From contig CADDYT010000069.1 in assembly GCA_902810755.1 (NCBI GenBank), forward strand, positions 1 through 30,511: a DNA stretch of 30,511 nt, in the 5' to 3' direction. Source of the stretch: Chloroflexota bacterium (GTDB lineage Bacteria > Chloroflexota > Ktedonobacteria > Ktedonobacterales > Ktedonobacteraceae). Shown here in pieces: positions 74 through 22,787 of the stretch. Position 1 is the first letter of the stretch. Every line of letters begins with the position of its first letter. Under the pieces are notes generated by a model. It did no database searches and was not told the origin of the DNA. It saw nothing but the letters and a program-made list of their open reading frames with translations. Both the position numbers and the translations under genes were made by a program.

Positions 74-3000
74 CTACGTCGGTGACGGGTTTCTGCAAAA
101 GTCCTCGTTTAGAATTACGTCCAGGGTTTCGATGAGAAAATCGGCGTTGGCGGCGGTGAAGACGAGGGGAGGCTTGATTTTCAGGACGTTGTGGTAAGGG
201 CCGTCGGTGCTGAGCAGGATGCCGCGCTCGCGCATGCGGTTGGCGATGTAGGAGGCATGGCGCTGGGCCGGTTCGCCTGTCCGCCGGTCGCGCACCAGTT
301 CGATGCCGATGAAGAGGCCGAGGCCGCGCACATCGCCGATGATGGGATGTTTTTGCATGAGCTGGCGCAGGCCGTGCAGGAGATAGGTGCCGGTATGCAG
401 CGCGTTAGCCTGCAAATGCTCATCCTCGATCACGTCCAGCACGGCAAGGCCGATGGCGCAGGAGACGGGGTTGCCGCCAAAGGTGTTGAAGTATTCCATG
501 CCGTTGTCGAACGAGGCGGCAATTTCCGGCGTCGTCACCACCGCCGCCAGGGGATGACCGTTGCCGATGGGTTTGCCCATTGTTACGATATCGGGGATGA
601 CGCCCTGCGTCTCGAAGCCCCAGAAGTGTGTGCCGACGCGCCCGAAGCCCGTCTGCACCTCATCGGCAATGCAGACTCCGCCTGCCGCGCGCACGTGGCC
701 ATACGCCTCTTGCAGGTAATTATCCGGCAGGACAATCTGCCCCCCGCAGCCGGGCAGCGACTCGCAGATGAAGGCCGCTATCTCCCTGTCCTGCACACGC
801 GCCTGCCCGATGGCCTCTTCGACGAAGCGCGCGTACTTCTTGCCTGCCTGTGGGTCGTCACGCTTATACTCCCCTCGATAGACGTCCGGCAGGGGGACGG
901 TGTGGACGTAAGGCGGCGCGCCGCAGCCACCGGGAGCGGCAAACTTGTACGGGCTGATCTCGACCAGCGTGCCGGTGTTGCCGTGATAGGCGGCATCGAG
1001 GACGATCACGTCTTTGCGGCCCGTGTGCGTGCGCGCCAGGCGCAGGGCCAGTTCGTTGGCCTCGCTGCCGGAGCAGACGAAGTAGCAGACGGAGAGCTGC
1101 CCCGGCAGGGTCGCGCAGAGCCGTTCGGCGTACTCGACCAGGTATGGATGCAGGTAGCGCGTGTTGGTGTTCAGCACCGCCATCTGCTCCTGCCCCGCCC
1201 GCACAACGCGAGGATGGCAATGCCCTACATGCGCCACGTTATTCACCGCGTCCAGGTAGGCGCGCCCGTTTTCATCGTAGAGATACTGCATCCAGCCGCG
1301 CACAATATGCAGTGGGCGGCGATAGGAGATGCTTAGCGAGGGGCCGATATGCGCCGCTCGCGCTCTGAGAATCTGCCCTGAGTCGCGTCCCGGCGCGGGA
1401 AAGCGTTCTGCTGGAATGCGCGTAATGAGATTGGGGTCGGGGCTGAGGCTCAACCAGACCGCGCGCTGGCTCGGACGCGCCACACCGGGGAAATCGCCGA
1501 TGAGGTCGAGCATATCGGTGATGATCTGGAAATGCAGGTGCGGGGGCCAGCCGCCGTTGACGCCCATCTCGCCAATGCGCGCGAAAGCCGCTCCCTGCGC
1601 TACCGGCTTACCCTCGTACAGGCCGTCGAGAGAGGCGAGGCTCAGATGGCCGTAGAGGGTATAGAAGGTGAGCGGCTCGTTGTCTTCGCCCGTGACGGTA
1701 TGTTGCAGGATGATGGTTGGGCCGTAATCGAGCGGGGCGGCGTTGTTCTGGAAGCTGTGAACGATGCCATCGAGCGGGGCCAGCACGGGCGAACCGGGTT
1801 CCATGAAGAGGTCGAGGCCCGTATGCAGGGTGCGCCATTCGGGGCCGTCATTGCCCGCCCTTCTGTACTGATCGCTCGCGTAAATCGGGCGGGCCTCGTT
1901 GTATCTGCCGATACCCACGCTGCTGTTAGCCGCGCGCATGCGTTCAAAGATGTAGCGATTGAATTGCTCAAGATTGGCCATGTCCGCCAGCGTTCCTACT
2001 TCGCGGCTGCCGATGCTCAGGTCAAAGATAACCGGGTTGGCGCAGCTCAGATCAGGTTCGACCACGCATCCGAGGCTGTCCCGGTTGTCGCGCAGCCAGC
2101 GCACTACTTTATCGCTGCGTGGGTCGGCGGGCTGGCCGCAGACGCTGCGGAAAAGATAGTGGGCGAAGCGCGGATGGACGCTCGCCAGTTGTTCGAGCAG
2201 CGCCCACGCCGGTTGCTCGCTGATCTTCAGATAGGCATTCTCCGGCTCAACCTGCTGCTGGTAGGCTGCATTGACCACGCTGACGCACAGCCGCGCACAG
2301 ATCAGTGGATACAGCACAGGCAGTTCGTCTTCGCGCAGTGGAAAGGTTTCGTGGTAGCCCGCGATGACGTTGGCTGCGGCAGCCAGCGGATCAGGCTTAT
2401 CCAGCATGGCATAGGCGGCGGCGATAGCAACTTCGTTGACGGTGGTCGTGTGGAGCATATCGCCAAAATCGATGACGCTGACCACGCGCCCCGGCTCGTT
2501 GTCGTTCGCCTCACTGACCAGCACGTTGTAGTCGTTGGCATCGTTATGGATGATGCTCTGGCGCAGCGCGGGCAGCACGGGCAAGACGTCGGTCCCATAG
2601 CGGTCGAAGAGGCGTTCCACCAGGGCGCGCCGCTGCGGTAAAGCGATACAATGCAGATATTCGCGAATCCAGTCGGCCTGACGCAGATCCCATTTCAGCG
2701 CGCGTGCGGCGGCTGGATGCTCGAAGCCCTGCAAGGCGCTGTCCAGACGGCCCAGCCAGTTGCCCAGGCTGCGCAGCAGTTCGGGCGAGTGAGGGCGCGA
2801 CTGCGCCAGCAGCCTGCCTGGCACGTAGGTGAGCATGCGCACGAAATGCTCTGCTCCCTGCCTGTCGCTCACAACCTCGATGGTCTCGCCTGTCAGAGTT
2901 GCGCAGACGCGCGGCAGCGTCAGGGTCTCGTCCTGCACGCTCAGGTGTTCCAGCGCCTGATTTTGCAGGTCGAGCGTCTCCCATTGCTCGCTCGCCGGAG

Positions 3001-3166
3001 CAATCTTCAAAACAAAGGCGCGCCCCCGTTCCGTCTCCAGATAAAAATTCGTGTCGCGTTCCCCCGGCAAAGGCCGTGCCTTCACCCGCGCTCCGTACAA
3101 CTCCCACGCAATGCGTTCGGCGTCCTCTATCGTAAAAAGCGATGATTGATGATTGCTATCTAACAT
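74..3166 (-). CDS. APH-type kinase / M23 peptidase-like / class III aminotransferase fusion (putative amino-alcohol kinase and phospho-lyase)
   Basis: This 1030-residue protein has three domains and no signal peptide, so it is probably cytosolic. Residues about 1-340 are an aminoglycoside-phosphotransferase/hydroxylysine-kinase fold with catalytic loop HNDANDYN (H207, D209, N214) and DFG (233-235). Residues about 435-560 are an M23/LytM-like domain that keeps the zinc pattern HTGLD (H448, D452) and HLH (H543, H545), plus H507. Residues about 590-1025 are a class III PLP enzyme of the AGXT2L type, with the probable Schiff-base lysine K865 in [10 protein letters not shown]. Bacterial fusions of APH kinases to AGXT2L enzymes are known. 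The animal counterparts are hydroxylysine kinase and the ammonia/phospho-lyases acting on phosphohydroxylysine and phosphoethanolamine. By analogy the kinase would phosphorylate an amino alcohol and the PLP domain would release ammonia and phosphate. The substrate and the role of the M23 domain are unknown. The start has an AGGAG about 12 nt upstream. Confidence 0.85.
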
Positions 3167-4681: not shown

Positions 4682-4742
4682 ATGATGGTGGCGATTCCAC
4701 TGGAGGAATCTTTAGCTGGATGGAAGGAAGGAGTCAACATTT

Positions 4743-5444
4743 ATGGCTTTGATCTCACCGGAAGATCAAGAAACACTGAAAAAGCTGTTTGAGGAGAAGC
4801 TGACGGGCGATGTCAGCATCACCTACTTTACGCAGCACGAATCCCCATTGATTGTGCCAGGGCGGCACGAATGCTCCTATTGCAAGGAGACACGCGAGAT
4901 ACTCGAAGAGGTCACTGACCTTTCAGATAAATTGCATCTGACGGTCAAGGACTTCGTGGCCGATGAGAAGGAAGCGGAGCAAATGGGCATCACGCGCATC
5001 CCGGCGTATGTGATGCAGGGGCAGAATAAGGGCAAGGTGCGTTTCTTCGGCCTGCCCGCCGGTTACGAGTTCTCCACGCTGCTCCAGTCGATCATCGATG
5101 TCTCCACAGGGAAGACGCAGTTGAGCCAGAAGACGAAGGAGGCGCTCAACACGCTCGAACAGAACCTGCAGGTGCAGGTCTTCGTCACCCCCACCTGACC
5201 CTACTGCCCGCGAGCAGCCAGTCTGGCTGTGCAGATGGCCGTCGAGAACGAGCATATCACGGCGGATGTCGTAGAGGTCTCCGAATTCGTCGAACTGGCC
5301 CAGCGATACAATGTGCAGGGCGTTCCCAAAACCGTCGTCAATGATACTGTCGAGTTCGTCGGCGCACTGCCGGAGCCGCGCTTCGTCCAGCAGGTTCTCC
5401 AGGCCGCCACGAAGAAGGAACCTGAACAGGGGAAAGAGCGGTAA
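4743..5444 (+). CDS. probable selenoprotein: two-domain glutaredoxin/thioredoxin-like protein disulfide oxidoreductase with UPYC active site
   Basis: Read through the in-frame TGA at 5196-5198, this gives 233 residues. It has two tandem thioredoxin folds, as in protein disulfide oxidoreductases (PDO, glutaredoxin-like). Unit 1 has a CSYC motif (C44, C47) and cis-proline motif TRIPAYV. Unit 2 begins VQVFVTPT-UGA-PYCPRAA, so the stop codon falls exactly where PDOs have the first Cys of CPYC (position 152, with C155 following), and it continues to the cis-proline motif QGVPKTVV. The downstream part shares the frame and is a normal PDO C-terminal half with no start-like N-terminus. The simplest reading is selenocysteine at 152; the alternative is a TGC-to-TGA nonsense mutation or sequencing error. 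It would catalyse cytosolic thiol-disulfide exchange, probably reduced by a thioredoxin-reductase-like enzyme. The start has a GGAAGGAAGGAG purine run about 10 nt upstream. Conventional calling would give 4743-5198 and 5229-5444 as separate genes. Confidence 0.75.
5196..5234 (+). promoter_or_regulatory. candidate bacterial SECIS element following the UGA codon
   Basis: After UGA (5196-5198) an upper stem GCAGCC (5214-5219) pairs with GGCUGU (5225-5230) around the loop AGUCU (5220-5224). A lower stem CUGC (5204-5207) pairs with GCAG (5231-5234), leaving a 5'-side bulge. The loop begins 21 nt after the UGA and has a G in its first two positions followed by U. Both fit general rules for bacterial SECIS hairpins and resemble the GGUC loop of E. 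coli fdhF. Folding was done by eye. Confidence 0.6.
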
Positions 5445-15566: not shown

Positions 15567-16256
15567 TTATAGTAGCAGGTCCTCGCTGGCTATCCAGCGA
15601 ACCTGCTCCTTGCCGCTATTGAAGCGCACCAGCTTCTCCCAGTTGATGCTGCCATCGGGGTTGCCGAAGTTGATGAGAAAATCCCGCTCAAATCGATTGG
15701 TAGCTTTATCCCATTCTTGCTTAAATTCACTATGGTGCTGAGTAGCGTAGTTGCCAATGAGGGAGATAAGTTTGATGTAAAAATCGGGGTCGCCCGTGAG
15801 TTCTTCCCAGAATGCCTGACCGGAACGAATGCGATAGGTACGGTCTTTCGTGGGATCAGCAGACTTGCGCCCATAACCATGACCAAGCAGAGGGTCAAAT
15901 CGCTTATGCAGCTTGAGCAGGCGGCTACCCAGGCTCTTAAATTCTTGATCCTGGCGTTTTGCCTGACTCGAATTGAAAATATTCGGCCCTGATTTTACGG
16001 CAATTGCCTTGTAGACTGTATCTGTCTCGACAGTGATATCAACGCCCTCACTTGGTGACACTACACCCCCGCTAACAGCTTTGGCCACCTGCTCAAAAAA
16101 TGCATCGCCGAAAATCGTCTCATCGGAAGACGACATATAAGAGCGCAGGATTTCGGTGACAATCTCACGAGCGTCCTGCACCCCAATTGCCCGCAAAAGA
16201 TACGGGTTCTTTCTGCGCAGGACTTCACTAAACCTCAACTCGCTTAATTTCTTCAT
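15567..16256 (-). CDS. type II restriction endonuclease, PmeII-like
   Basis: The protein has 229 residues. The opening LRRKNPYLLRAIGV and the segment SSSDETIFGDAFFEQ are typical of PmeII-family type II endonucleases as I recall them. The likely metal-binding core is SEGVDI (E70, D73) followed by AVKSGPN (K88), a PD-(D/E)xK arrangement in which the middle acid is not at its standard place. It would cleave unmodified DNA as a cytosolic enzyme; the recognition site cannot be predicted. It lies 43 bp downstream of a methyltransferase gene on the same strand, the usual arrangement of a type II pair. No strong ribosome site precedes the ATG, which may keep expression below that of the methyltransferase. 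Confidence 0.7.
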   Translation of the reverse strand: MKKLSELRFSEVLRRKNPYLLRAIGVQDAREIVTEILRSYMSSSDETIFGDAFFEQVAKAVSGGVVSPSEGVDITVETDTVYKAIAVKSGPNIFNSSQAKRQDQEFKSLGSRLLKLHKRFDPLLGHGYGRKSADPTKDRTYRIRSGQAFWEELTGDPDFYIKLISLIGNYATQHHSEFKQEWDKATNRFERDFLINFGNPDGSINWEKLVRFNSGKEQVRWIASEDLLL

Positions 16257-16299
16257 GCGACGTTGGTAAAAGTCATTAAGGCTACGGCGTATGATATCC

Positions 16300-17304
16300 T
16301 CAAGTTACGACTGATTCATACCATGGATCACTTTCTCCACCGTCTTCGTTGTTTCCCGTTCCATTTGTCTCAATCGCTTCGGAGAAAAGAGGAATAGGAG
16401 TCTGCGCTGTCATTCTCCGCTCAGGGGGAAGTTCCTTCGTGTTCTGTTTGTTGACTTCAGAAAGCAGAGAAGGAGAAGATTGTACTTCTGCGTCTTCTAA
16501 ACGTTGCTGCGCGACTTTGAAATAATCAGTGTTGAGTTCGATGCCGATACAGCGCCGTCCGAGTTGCACAGCAGCGACAGCCGTCGTTCCAGAGCCAAGA
16601 AACGGATCAAGTACAAGGTTTCCAGGCAAGGTAAACAGCTTGATAAACCAGCCGGGAAGTTCGACGGGAAAAGCGGCGCTATGGCCCCGATTCCCGCATT
16701 CGGTTGCCAGATAGAGTACGTTATCAGGATAGGCTAATTCACGCCCTATCCAGTTCGCAATCTTTTTGCCGAAACCGCTCTGCACATGAGAATTGTCGCG
16801 TCGCTTGTCGGTCTCACTGAGGTTGCGTAACCGCGTCTGGCTCCACTCACCCATCGGAACACGTACAGCATCCTGATACATAGCGAAATGCTTCTCTTTT
16901 GTGAAATGGAGACAGCATTCCCAGGCATCGCGAAAGCGGTTGGGCCACTTACCAGGATAGCTATTGCGCTTGTGCCAGATATATTCCTCTGTCCAGAGCC
17001 AGCCCTGCTTACGCATCGCTAAAATCAGTTCCAGCACATACGTATGTCGCTCACCATCAACTACACGCTCTTTGATATTGAGAATAAACGACCCTTCCGG
17101 CTTCAACACCCGTTTGAGTTCAGCGGCAATGGGGAGAAACCATTCAACGTACTTATCTGGCGCTACTCCCCCATATGTATCCTTGCGCTGATCAGCATAG
17201 GGTGGAGAAGTGACTATCAAATCGACGGAGTTGGATGGAAGCGCAGGTAAAATATCCAGGCAATTTCCGTGAAAAAGCTGTGTTTGTAAAGTTTGATCAT
17301 CCAT
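16300..17304 (-). CDS. site-specific DNA methyltransferase, beta-class, probably N4-cytosine
   Basis: The protein has 334 residues from the ATG at 17304; a GTG one codon earlier is possible. GAGGG lies 8 nt before the ATG. Catalytic motif IV TSPPY (residues 32-36) precedes the SAM-binding motif I DPFLGSGTT (233-241), the order of beta-class amino-methyltransferases. The S-P-P-Y form favours N4-methylcytosine over N6-methyladenine, although this is not absolute. It should protect the host from the endonuclease encoded immediately downstream. The C-terminal tail after about residue 280 is low in conservation signals and rich in Glu, Ser and Thr. Confidence 0.88.
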   Translation of the reverse strand: MDDQTLQTQLFHGNCLDILPALPSNSVDLIVTSPPYADQRKDTYGGVAPDKYVEWFLPIAAELKRVLKPEGSFILNIKERVVDGERHTYVLELILAMRKQGWLWTEEYIWHKRNSYPGKWPNRFRDAWECCLHFTKEKHFAMYQDAVRVPMGEWSQTRLRNLSETDKRRDNSHVQSGFGKKIANWIGRELAYPDNVLYLATECGNRGHSAAFPVELPGWFIKLFTLPGNLVLDPFLGSGTTAVAAVQLGRRCIGIELNTDYFKVAQQRLEDAEVQSSPSLLSEVNKQNTKELPPERRMTAQTPIPLFSEAIETNGTGNNEDGGESDPWYESVVT

Positions 17305-17353
17305 CACTCATACCCTCTTGTTTATTGCCATCTGAAAGAGATTGGATGCCCTC

Positions 17354-17382
17354 ATTATAACATTATTCTCATTGCGTGACGA
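17354..17382 (-). promoter_or_regulatory. sigma70-type promoter of the PmeII-like restriction-modification pair
   Basis: On the minus strand TCGTCA (17377-17382) lies 17 bp from a perfect TATAAT (17354-17359), about 50 nt upstream of the methyltransferase start. It would drive methyltransferase then endonuclease. Confidence 0.55.
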
Positions 17383-17468
17383 ACTTTCATTCTATGGTAC
17401 TGCCATATCTCTCATTCGTTCTCGTACATCCTTGGAACTTCCCTTTAGATAAGCATCTTTATAGATAA

Positions 17469-17867
17469 TCTACCATATCGCTAATCTACTGGCTAACCAG
17501 CCTGACCGGCCATCAGGTGCGCAGTGATTATCGTTCGCCCGAGACTGCCGAGTCGTTTCCTCCCTGTGATGCTATCGTCGTCGTTGCCGCTACATTCAAC
17601 ACGGTCAACAAATTTGCGCTTGGTATTGCCGATAATCGTGCGCTCACCATTCTCTGTGAGAATCTGGGGCGAGAACGGCCTATCCTGATGGTTCCCTGTA
17701 TCAACCAGAACCATCTTGCTCGTCATCCCGCCTTTCTTCAGAGCATAAGCACACTCCGCTCGTGGGAAGTCAGCGTTCTTTACGATGTGGAAAGATACCC
17801 ACCCAGGAACGAGGTGCCATGGGATGTCATTCTTGATGAGCTTCACCGGCTTATGAAGGGGAAATAG
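17469..17867 (+). pseudogene. flavoprotein gene remnant, 5'-truncated
   Basis: The frame is open from just after a TAA at 17466 and encodes LTSLTGHQVRSDYRSPE, then CDAIVVVAATFNTVNKFALGI and the C-terminal RYPPRNEVPWDVILDELH. This corresponds to the C-terminal part of small flavoproteins of the PPC-decarboxylase-like (flavin-binding) fold, normally about 180 residues. The N-terminal half with the first beta-strand and nucleotide-binding loop is missing, and no start with a ribosome site is present; a GTG at 17517 falls inside the conserved region. It is the only plus-strand gene in the block and is probably the stump of a resident gene cut by a rearrangement. A short functional protein is possible but unlikely. 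Confidence 0.6.
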
Positions 17868-17881
17868 AGGTGTATTGCCTT

Positions 17882-18235
17882 TCAGTCATCAAAGAATAGA
17901 TAGGGCTGTCTGGCTTCTGCTATTTTCAAGTCCTTCGGCTTTACCCCATCTGTGTCTATACCGATGATGAGTACAGGAATATCGATATCAGAAACGCCTC
18001 GATGATCCAGATCCCAGACAAACTCTGCTTCAAACTGTTTCTTGAAGGCTTCATTGAGGCACGGCGGCCTATAGAGTACCTTGTCTCTCATGGTCTTTTC
18101 TTTGCTTACTTTGGTCTTGCAGTTTTCTGCATCGACTGAATCGATGACCTGTAACACCTCTTCCAGTTCAGCCTGATGAAGCTTTTTGATGACTTCCTTT
18201 CCCCTGTTGAAGGAATATATTCCTGCGATACGCAT
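17882..18235 (-). pseudogene. BglII/BstYI-type endonuclease remnant with the catalytic middle deleted
   Basis: The intact 117-codon frame begins MRIAGIYSFNRGKEVI and continues IDAENCKTKVSKEKT-like sequence (here VDAENCKTKVSKEKT) to LYRPPCLNEAFKKQFEAE. This corresponds to the N-terminus of BstYI-like endonucleases of about 200 residues. It then passes directly to HRGVSDIDIPVLIIGID, which resembles the BstYI C-terminus. About 90-100 residues between, including the catalytic PD-(D/E)xK segment, are absent, so an in-frame deletion is the simplest explanation. It lies 16 bp downstream of its likely methyltransferase partner. It is probably inactive as a nuclease; whether the short protein is made or folds is unknown. 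Confidence 0.6.
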
Positions 18236-18251
18236 TCCTAATTTTTCTCCA

Positions 18252-19226
18252 TTACTCTGAATTCTGGCGCATCCATTCGAGTGGAACCTGTGCCACCTTT
18301 TCGCGCCCTGTTGGCTTATGTACTGGTCTCCCCAGTGGCCGTGTTTTTAATGTTCCATTGTAAAGCTGGAAGATTCTTTCTTTGCTAATCGAGATGTATT
18401 CCTGTTCTTTGTCCACGCCTATAGCTTTTCGGCCATGCATGAGGGCGGCAAGGAGGGTAGAGCCTACACCACAGTAGGGGTCCAGGACACGCTCATCTTC
18501 GTTTGTAAGGGCAAGGACGCAACGCTCAACAAGTTCCACGGGGAACTGGCATGGATGCTCGGTTTTCTCGATATGGTTTGCTTTCACATTGGGAATTTCC
18601 CAGATGCAGGTTTCCCATTCCTCAAGGAGAAATTCCCAGAGATCAGAGGGATTCTTTCCCAATGGATTCCCGGAAGGCTGTCCCTTATTTGGCCCTTTGA
18701 AATGCCGTTTCCCTGGGTATTTAGCAGGAACACGCACAGGATCAAGGTTGAAGGTGTAATCATCGCTTTTGGTGAACCATAAGATGGTTTCGTAGCGACC
18801 GGAAAATCGTTTCGAGGCGTGCAGGCCGTGCTCAAAGTGCCAGATAATTCTGTTGCGTAACTTAAGCCCGTACTCCTTGAAAATATCGTAATAAAAAATA
18901 TCCAGAGGAAAGACTTCGCCCTCATCAACATAATTACCGGTTTGCCAGCAAATGCTGCCACGTGGATCGAGAATACGGACCAGTTCACGGATAACAGCTT
19001 TTTGCCCGGTGAGATATGTTGTGATGTCTTGCTTCCGTTCATAAGCTTTCCCGATGTTGTAAGGTGGAGAAGTCACAACAAGGGATATGGCTTCATCGGG
19101 TATGGTCTTTAGAAAGGTTTGTGCGTCTCCGTGATGAAGCGTGATACTATTGCTCGCATCGTAAGTATCTCCAATGAGAGGAGCGTGATAATCTGCGGCA
19201 GGCTGGAATAACGGTGAAATACTCAT
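18252..19226 (-). CDS. site-specific DNA methyltransferase, BglII/BstYI-type, probably N4-cytosine
   Basis: The protein has 324 residues. Motif IV TSPPYNIGKAYE (52-63) precedes motif I DPYCGVGST (249-257), giving beta-class order. The segments LRNRIIWHFEHGLH, KRFSGRYETILWFTKSDDY and YPGKRHFKGPNKGQPSGNPLGKNPSD are characteristic of the widespread methyltransferases associated with BglII/BstYI-like systems. S-P-P-Y favours N4-methylcytosine. A GATC-containing target such as RGATCY is possible by association with the neighbouring endonuclease remnant but is not proven. All motifs are intact, so the enzyme is probably active even though the endonuclease is decayed. GAGG lies about 10 nt before the ATG. 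Confidence 0.88.
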   Translation of the reverse strand: MSISPLFQPAADYHAPLIGDTYDASNSITLHHGDAQTFLKTIPDEAISLVVTSPPYNIGKAYERKQDITTYLTGQKAVIRELVRILDPRGSICWQTGNYVDEGEVFPLDIFYYDIFKEYGLKLRNRIIWHFEHGLHASKRFSGRYETILWFTKSDDYTFNLDPVRVPAKYPGKRHFKGPNKGQPSGNPLGKNPSDLWEFLLEEWETCIWEIPNVKANHIEKTEHPCQFPVELVERCVLALTNEDERVLDPYCGVGSTLLAALMHGRKAIGVDKEQEYISISKERIFQLYNGTLKTRPLGRPVHKPTGREKVAQVPLEWMRQNSE

Positions 19227-20775: not shown

Positions 20776-20869
20776 CTTATGCTATCTGCGATTTGTCGAG
20801 TAGCCCTCGTTCTTTCAAAGCAAGAGGATAATGGCTTTCGGTCTCCTCAAACTTTGTAAGGAGGGTATT

Positions 20870-22723
20870 GTGCGTCACAAGCTCGTAGTATCTCTCTCTT
20901 TCGCGCTCGTCCTGCTTGTCGGTGGCCTGTTGTATCCGGGCCACTCCATCCCCCGCGCGCAGGCGGCGAGTCGTTTTCGCCCTATGGATGTCGGCGATTT
21001 CCCTTCCCTGGTTAAGCTGAGCCAGTTGCTGGGCAACGACCGGCAGGATCGGACGTTGCAGATGAGCGTCGGCCTGGCGCTGCGCAATCAGGACCAACTG
21101 AACACCCTGCTGCAAAATCTCTATGATCCATCCTCTCCTCAATACCACCAGTATCTGACCGTCGCGCAGTTCACGCAGGAATTTGGCCCGACGGCGGATG
21201 AGCAGCAGGCGGTCATCAACTATCTGACGCAGCAGGGCTTCCGCGTCACGCAGACGTACCCCAACCGTCTGCTGGTCGACTTCAGCGGGCCGGAGTCGCT
21301 GGCCGAGCGCGTTTTCGGCGTGCATATCAACAGCTACCAGGGGCCGGATGGCCGCCACTTCTTCGCCAATAGCAGCAACCCCACGCTGCCGACCTACATT
21401 GCCCGGGATATCACCTCGCTCACCGGCCTGGACAACGCCAGTGAGTTCTCTCATCCCCCCATCATTTCTCAGAACAGCAGCATGAGCAGCCCGCAGGCCA
21501 GCAATTGCCCGACGGCGGGCAGCGGCAGCGGCGGCGGTGGCTTGCTGGGAGGCGGCACGGCCTATATTCCGAGTCAGCTTGCCACCGCCTACAACTATGA
21601 CGGGCTGCACAACGCCGGTCTGCAAGGACAGGGCCAGACGGTCGGCGTCTTTGAACTCGATGGCTATTCGGCCAGCGATATCCAGGCGTATACACAGTGC
21701 TTCGGCGGCGGCAACGTGCCGTTGCAGAACGTCGTGCTGGATGGCTTCAACGGCCAGCCCGGCGCGGGCGCAATTGAAGTCGAACTGGACGTAGAAGTCA
21801 TTTTGAGCATGGCCCCCAACCTGTCGAAATTGATTGTCTACGAAGCGCCAAACACCACACAGGGCTACAACGACGAATTCGCGCGTATCGTCAATGATCG
21901 CACGCCTGTCATCAGCGTGAGCTGGGGCCAGTGCGAGACGGCTGCCGGGCAGCAAGAGGCGCAGCAGGAGAATACCTTCTTCCAGGAGGCGGCGGCTCAG
22001 GGCCAGACCATCCTCGTCGCTGCTGGCGATAGCGGCAGCGAGACCTGTTTCCAGCAGACCTACGACCCCTCGCTGATAGCAGATGACCCGGCGGCGCAGC
22101 CCTACGTCACCGGCGTGGGCGGTACCACGCTTTCGCTCAACAGCGATAACAGCTACCAGTCTGAACACGTGTGGAACGACGGCTTCTTCGGCGGCGCAGG
22201 CGGCGGCGGCCTGAGCCAGTACTGGAAGCAGCCTTCGTGGCAGACGGGTCACGGCGTGCAGAACACCTACTCCAACGGCATGCGCGAGACGCCCGATATC
22301 TCGCTGAACGCCGACCCCGCCACCGGCTATCCCGTCTACTGCACGGTCGGCTCCAACTGCACGGGCAGCACCGGTTTGCCGGGTGGCAGCGGCGGTGGCT
22401 GGCTCACCGTCGGCGGCACCTCGGCTGCGGCCCCCATGTGGGCTGCAATGATCGCGCTGACCAACCAGGAGGCGGCGCAGCACGGCAAGGGAGTAGTCGG
22501 CTTCCTTAACCCCCTGCTCTACCAGATCGCTTCCGGCTCGCGTTACAGCAGCGATTTCCATGACATCACGCCGCCGGGCGACGCGACCACGCCGTCCAAC
22601 AACGACGAACTGGGCTTCAACGGGGGCGCCTACCCCGTCACGCAGGGCTACGATATGGCAACCGGCTGGGGCAGCTTCAACGCCACCAGCCTGGCCGCCG
22701 ACCTCGTGGCATTGGGAAAATAA
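20870..22723 (+). CDS. secreted sedolisin (S53) serine-carboxyl peptidase, pro-kumamolisin type
   Basis: The protein has 617 residues from the GTG at 20870, which has AAGGAGGG 4 nt upstream. An ATG at 20831 would add 13 residues before the signal peptide. Residues 1-34 are a signal peptide (basic start, hydrophobic core, AQA end). Residues about 45-200 are the pro-domain with the YHQYLT segment typical of S53 enzymes. The mature part contains the catalytic E303 and D307 (E-x3-D in IEVELD), the oxyanion D387 (AGDSGSE), and nucleophile S518 in GGTSAAAPMW. The calcium site is FHDIT and the terminal YDMATGWGSFN. The enzyme should be exported, self-activate at acidic pH and digest extracellular protein. 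A Gly/Ser-rich linker joins the pro-domain to the mature enzyme. A strong terminator follows. Confidence 0.93.
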   Translation: MRHKLVVSLSFALVLLVGGLLYPGHSIPRAQAASRFRPMDVGDFPSLVKLSQLLGNDRQDRTLQMSVGLALRNQDQLNTLLQNLYDPSSPQYHQYLTVAQFTQEFGPTADEQQAVINYLTQQGFRVTQTYPNRLLVDFSGPESLAERVFGVHINSYQGPDGRHFFANSSNPTLPTYIARDITSLTGLDNASEFSHPPIISQNSSMSSPQASNCPTAGSGSGGGGLLGGGTAYIPSQLATAYNYDGLHNAGLQGQGQTVGVFELDGYSASDIQAYTQCFGGGNVPLQNVVLDGFNGQPGAGAIEVELDVEVILSMAPNLSKLIVYEAPNTTQGYNDEFARIVNDRTPVISVSWGQCETAAGQQEAQQENTFFQEAAAQGQTILVAAGDSGSETCFQQTYDPSLIADDPAAQPYVTGVGGTTLSLNSDNSYQSEHVWNDGFFGGAGGGGLSQYWKQPSWQTGHGVQNTYSNGMRETPDISLNADPATGYPVYCTVGSNCTGSTGLPGGSGGGWLTVGGTSAAAPMWAAMIALTNQEAAQHGKGVVGFLNPLLYQIASGSRYSSDFHDITPPGDATTPSNNDELGFNGGAYPVTQGYDMATGWGSFNATSLAADLVALGK

Positions 22724-22747
22724 GCTGGTTTGAAGTTTGAGGGTAAG

Positions 22748-22787
22748 CAAAGCAGGCACAATGGCGGTTATCATTGTGCCTGCTTTG
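22748..22787 (+). terminator. intrinsic terminator of the sedolisin gene
   Basis: A perfect 16-bp stem, CAAAGCAGGCACAATG with CATTGTGCCTGCTTTG, encloses the loop GCGGTTAT and ends in TTTG followed by TCTGTT. It lies 24 bp after the stop codon. The T tract is interrupted, but the stem is very strong. Confidence 0.75.

Follow-up and report, generated by a model that had tools for sequence, protein, structure and literature searches.

The gene at positions 4743-5444 raises the question of whether an in-frame TGA at the active site of a protein disulfide oxidoreductase (PDO) ends the protein or is read as selenocysteine (Sec). It lies in the window, by which we mean the whole stretch of DNA that was analysed (30,511 nucleotides, contig CADDYT010000069.1). 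The initial annotation had joined the two frames flanking the TGA at 5196 into one 233-residue PDO, had placed the TGA at the first Cys of the second CxxC (giving UPYC) with the N-terminal CSYC intact, and had called the product a probable new selenoprotein. The features of the locus are the following.

4728..4733 (+): AAGGAG, probable ribosome binding site, 9 nt 5' of the ATG
4743..5444 (+): Sec-type PDO gene, 233 codons plus TAA, with one in-frame TGA
4872..4883 (+): N-terminal CSYC (residues 44-47), both Cys specified by Cys codons
5196..5198 (+): in-frame TGA, predicted Sec codon (residue 152, position 1 of UPYC)
5199..5441 (+): C-terminal thioredoxin-fold half, made only with read-through of the TGA, as indicated by a Thioredoxin_3 match and the codon-position pattern
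5214..5230 (+): SECIS-like hairpin, 7-bp stem 5214-5220/5224-5230 with loop GUC at 5221-5223, 22 nt after the TGA

The TGA at 5196-5198, codon 152, is the sole internal stop of the forward-strand frame 4743-5444, which ends with TAA at 5442-5444. Read through this codon, the gene encodes 233 residues with CSYC at 44-47 and UPYC at 152-155, so that the TGA indeed occupies the place of the first Cys of the second CxxC. The read-through protein matches the family TIGR02187 over residues 6-221 with 266.1 bits, well above the cut-off of 185, and Thioredoxin_3 is matched separately by each half, with 29.8 bits in the N-terminal half and 55.6 bits in the part after the TGA. Judged from its sequence, the protein would thus have the build characteristic of TIGR02187, in which a CxxC or UxxC occurs in both of two thioredoxin-fold halves, and the reading of both frames as one PDO holds. 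The structure of Pyrococcus furiosus PDO (PDB 1a8l) is matched over residues 1-221 (E 2.6e-43), but the C-terminal site of the window protein is UPYC, at a position where 1a8l presumably has a Cys. Solved PDO relatives also include 2ayt, 2ywm and 2hls.

We scanned genome contigs for relatives, of which there are at least 576, and compared the best 80 loci. The codon at the first position of UPYC is TGA in 19 of these 80 and a Cys codon (TGC or TGT) in the remaining 61; no other residue occurs there. Loci of the scan labelled as archaea have TGC or TGT. The TGA loci, L009, L011 and L031 among them, are mostly metagenome-assembled genomes (MAGs) and are labelled Ktedonobacterales, Chloroflexi, Thermalbibacter, Thermomicrobiaceae, Acidobacteria, Sulfopaludibacter, Blastocatellia, Chloracidobacterium, Gemmatimonadetes and Bacillota. 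Together with L110 and the window they make 21 TGA genes, whose frames run over 221-240 residues without a further stop. An in-frame UGA is thus aligned with the Cys of homologues and kept in other species, which is the pattern by which bacterial selenoproteins are recognized.

A pseudogene or a sequencing error would offer another account, in which a nonsense change leaves a 151-residue N-terminal fragment. Proteins of this length that end at the TGA position do exist in databases: among the best 120 of 6254 protein relatives, seen as proteins and not as DNA, six end exactly before it (P0075, P0080, P0081, P0086 and P0087 with 151 residues each, P0101 with 172). A related genome, G064, moreover retains only a C-terminal PDO remnant. 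However, a random loss of function would not be expected to place TGA at the same codon in 19 of the best 80 loci, from several phyla by label, nor to leave 21 genes that run on for their full length without a second stop. The initial annotation had also seen no decay downstream of the TGA, and this is borne out by comparison with L001. Between the window PDO and this TGA relative, the 76 codons after the TGA differ 17, 6 and 47 times at codon positions 1, 2 and 3, with 57 of 76 residues identical; the corresponding figures for the 150 codons upstream are 34, 20 and 76, with 103 of 150 residues identical. In the relatives compared, the differences after the TGA likewise fall mostly at third positions. 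We conclude from this concentration that selection still acts on the part after the TGA as protein. On the conserved TGA, the continuing frames, this downstream selection and the hairpin described below, we rejected a pseudogene or sequencing error, which we consider very improbable.

In the class of G002, which is Ktedonobacteria by the labels of L002 and L006, PDO matches were found in 12 of the 47 genomes: five have one TGA, six have no stop and one is the C-terminal remnant. The latter, locus L120 (positions 430-630, genome G064), keeps about the last 67 PDO residues in frame behind an unrelated upstream frame, and may be a gene remnant or an assembly break.

Sec insertion in bacteria is directed by a SECIS hairpin, for which the accessible text of PMC13188914 gives a model with a loop of 3-9 nt, a G in its first two positions, a stem of 4-16 bp, a spacing of 16-37 nt and an MFE of -7.5 or lower. 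The hairpin after the PDO TGA fits this model, as set out in that portion of the source, with 7 bp, loop GUC, spacing 22 and MFE -16.0. The generic model is unspecific, being satisfied by 481 of the 879 TGA triplets of the window and by 39 of 61 Cys genes, and we rejected it as evidence. General measures of folding were equally uninformative: Cys genes match TGA genes in the longest stem formed at any place within 48 nt, mean fold energies differ little (-15.2 kcal/mol in TGA vs -12.3 in Cys genes), and the window's hairpin region by itself shows no exceptional stability (z -1.02, with 31 of 200 shuffles folding equally well). Searches of the window with Rfam at gathering scores and with ARAGORN returned nothing. 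Since neither the generic model nor stem length at any place discriminates, only a comparison of hairpins at a specified place counts.

Such a comparison separates the two kinds of gene. In a recount over the 80 loci, L110 and the window (21 TGA and 61 Cys genes), a stem of at least 4 bp round a loop at offset 23-25 is present in 19 of 21 TGA genes vs 5 of 61 Cys loci; when the loop must also read G[GU]N, the TGA count stays at 19 of 21 and the Cys count falls to 0 of 61. In L020 (6451) and L037 (4520), the two TGA genes that depart from this pattern, the pairing is shifted by one base, which gives a 6-bp hairpin with the loop AGGTTG in place of the common 3-nt loop. Other hairpin analyses used 20 TGA genes (L031 left out) and 61 Cys genes (L032 left out, L119 added from outside the 80); L034 and L040 are identical over the 48 nt, two of the Cys rows also do not differ from each other, and L040 was omitted from alignment A2. 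When the genes were recoded synonymously with each gene's own codon usage (1000 trials), the hairpin was expected in 1.36 of 20 TGA genes, with a maximum of 6, whereas 18 of the 20 actually have it. At offset 22-24, all 20 TGA genes carry the codon AGG or AGT, while among 61 Cys genes AGG occurs in three and AGT in none. The outermost stem pair is kept as GC, AU, CG or GU. Covariation was seen in one of five pairs, the other four showing none and two of them never varying, and one pair with changes on both sides also arose in 425 of 500 shuffles. Of the 879 TGA triplets in the window, only one is followed at the same distance by a hairpin whose loop reads G[GU]N and whose stem has at least 5 bp; as the PDO TGA satisfies this rule, the single hit is the PDO TGA itself.

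The exact exchange of UGA for Cys codons would also be explained if UGA were read as Cys or Trp, through a suppressor or an altered code, as insertion of Cys would likewise yield a working enzyme. The decoding machinery was looked for in related genomes, of which 23 were searched for tRNA-Sec and 24 for SelA and SelD; the genome of L037 lay outside these sets, and G042 lay outside the tRNA-Sec and SelB searches. The best tRNA-Sec match reaches 64.8-75.3 bits in all 18 TGA genomes searched and 69.3 bits in two Thermogemmatispora genomes, whose PDO has Cys, vs 51.4, 42.9 and 50.8 bits in the Cys genomes G011, G012 and G014. The model is loose: its 47-bit cut-off is passed by 22 of 23 genomes, including G011 and G014, which are without SelA and SelB, and it responds in 14 of 14 control genomes, five of them above the cut-off. 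Because the cut-off fails to separate the genomes, the distinction rests on the gap in score. ARAGORN in turn reported tRNA-SeC(tca) in all 13 loci submitted to it, out of 20 fetched.

Among the protein factors, SelB scores above its cut-off in 18 of 23 genomes, namely 16 of 18 TGA genomes and both Thermogemmatispora; SelA does so in 16 of 24 (14 of 19 TGA genomes), Thermogemmatispora keeping it as well, and SelD in 20 of 24 (18 of 19 TGA genomes). In all 20 genomes with SelD above cut-off (G001-G010, G013, G016-G023 and G042, including the two Thermogemmatispora with a Cys PDO), the SelD frame itself contains one TGA, as expected of a Sec-containing SelD. None of the three proteins is above cut-off in the Cys genomes G011, G012 and G014. 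Among TGA genomes, SelB is below cut-off in G001 and G010, SelA in G001, G009, G010 and G023 (G007 has only a piece), and SelD in G015; these absences are probably gaps in the MAGs. Decoding as Cys or Trp does not account for the tRNA-SeC(tca), for SelB in 16 of 18 and SelA in 14 of 19 TGA genomes, or for a G[GU]N hairpin found in 19 of 21 TGA and no Cys genes, and a general code change would hardly single out one codon of the PDO gene. These data indicate ordinary Sec decoding, and a changed code, which we rejected, is scarcely credible.

The window's own genome probably shares this machinery, as deduced from its relatives. The RNase J of the window shares 83% identity with the G064 enzyme and 82% with the G001 enzyme; for this reason the window fits the class of G002, to which G064 (SelA 581 bits) belongs and in which SelA is present in 41 of 47 genomes.

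The continuous frame, the conserved TGA, the hairpin, the selection past the TGA and the Sec machinery of relatives are all documented at the level of sequence. We hold it very probable that the gene encodes a two-domain PDO with Sec at UPYC, its UGA decoded by way of a SelB-bound hairpin. Sec would take the place of the N-terminal Cys in a C-terminal CPYC site, turning it into UPYC; at the UGA 5196-5198, Sec-tRNA-Sec would do the decoding, brought there by SelB docked on the intragenic hairpin at 5214-5230. The same gene might also have two outputs, if low selenium let the TGA act as a stop to give a one-domain CSYC protein and read-through gave the two-domain enzyme, with the hairpin as a selenium switch. 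The 151-residue product would hold a DUF7088 match (residues 19-103), a Thioredoxin_3 match (42-114) and the intact CSYC; however, neither stability of this short form nor selection for it has support, and dual output seems unlikely. It is compatible with Sec decoding of the UGA and not exclusive of it.

Given Sec decoding, the mixture of TGA and Cys codons among relatives bears on how often the family has switched between them. We built a tree of 168 rows (26 Sec, 142 Cys) by a quick method with no mixture model and with long branches flagged. For the protein rows, a C residue was scored as Cys and a truncation as Sec; these rows come from P0002-P0093, less P0027, P0049, P0052 and P0072 (motif filter) and P0076 and P0091 (length), and P0101, the relative of 172 residues, lies outside the tree. 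At least 13 changes of state are needed, four of them forced by well-supported branches. The window shares a starred six-row group (support 99) with five truncated relatives that were scored as Sec. Sec and Cys members can adjoin closely, as L001 (TGA) and P0032 (Cys) do at 84% identity. The tree gives no direction to these changes, because change counts cannot tell gain from loss. Thermogemmatispora has Cys at the PDO site, yet keeps SelA, SelB, tRNA-Sec and a TGA-bearing SelD. Sec-to-Cys substitutions are described as rare and documented mainly in FdhA and SelD in the accessible part of PMC13188914. We tentatively suggest, at somewhat less than even chances, that the PDO family is a hot spot at which Sec and Cys replace one another, the hairpin being gained or lost along with them, and that these exchanges include a Sec-to-Cys reversion in Thermogemmatispora.

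Sec-containing thioredoxin and glutaredoxin are one-domain proteins. The window protein differs from them as a two-domain PDO with predicted Sec in the second site only; shared with these UxxC proteins are Sec at motif position 1 and a thioredoxin-type fold, as they appear in the accessible portions of PMC9312934 and PMC13188914. The proposal of a probable new selenoprotein stands as to the selenoprotein, on the conserved TGA, the TGA-specific hairpin and the Sec machinery of relatives. Its novelty fails at the family level, because TIGR02187 already bears the NCBIfam name PDO_seleno_TRX and is listed in two reviews. In the sections available, these reviews (PMC9312934, PMC13188914) count TIGR02187 among the predicted selenoproteins, under the name 'Homolog of AhpF N-terminal domain (Grx-like domain protein)' and with the motif UxxC, and the latter grades the prediction 'with high confidence'. 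The 2006 survey, from the text at hand, already places selenoproteins of this type in Carboxydothermus and Symbiobacterium (PMC1794560). The window PDO belongs to the same NCBIfam family as the predicted UxxC selenoproteins and has the same motif type; its likeness to the published cases, of which ABB15282.1 is an example, is one of family and motif type and not of exact Sec position, as far as the available text goes.

A literature search outside supplements and most subscription papers found no paper that names a TIGR02187 selenoprotein in Ktedonobacteria, and none on selenocysteine or selenoproteins in Thermogemmatispora or on selenoproteins in Ktedonobacteria. The accessible parts of PMC1088965, PMC12013277, PMC5029168, PMC5330540, PMC3971608 and PMC4918011 hold no mention of the family in Ktedonobacteria. 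For Ktedonobacter and selenocysteine, the same excerpts yield an AhpC homologue in a figure legend (PMC5330540), general mentions (PMC3971608) and a genome list (PMC4918011). It is thus well supported that the window PDO belongs to a known, computationally predicted selenoprotein family, which the literature found has so far left unnamed in Ktedonobacteria.

By analogy with its family, the protein is most likely a cytosolic disulfide reductase or isomerase coupled to thioredoxin reductase, which would feed it, and the selenol would be its attacking nucleophile. Among six loci in which ten neighbouring ORFs were scanned, a thioredoxin reductase stands beside the PDO in one: in L014 it (TIGR01292, 372.8 bits) ends about 190 bp upstream of the Sec-PDO on the same strand, and the neighbours in the other five are unrelated. 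Scans of the window's own ORFs covered nine in one case and ten in another, out of 97. The PDO gene is preceded in the window by an ACP-synthase-III-like gene and followed by a cyclase/AAA/TPR regulator, and with such neighbours no operon is evident.

Three other regions of the window, all on the reverse strand, drew attention. At 15567-19226 lies a restriction-modification cluster, in which small ORFs separate the genes for an EcoO109I-like endonuclease (PF14511, 170 bits) and two N6_N4_Mtase proteins. A single frame of 1030 residues at 74-3166 unites an APH-type phosphotransferase, a Peptidase_M23 and a class-III aminotransferase domain. At 20777-22774, an ORF of 665 residues with no Pfam match overlaps a 630-residue ORF on the opposite strand (20831-22723), and either may be the gene.

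These results indicate that Ktedonobacteria use Sec in a core thiol enzyme, and that gene callers truncate genes of this kind at the active site, which leaves 151-residue entries called 'glutaredoxin-like' or 'hypothetical'. With Sec and Cys members among near relatives, and some of the Cys members in genomes that decode Sec, the family offers a natural set in which to ask why Sec is gained or lost.
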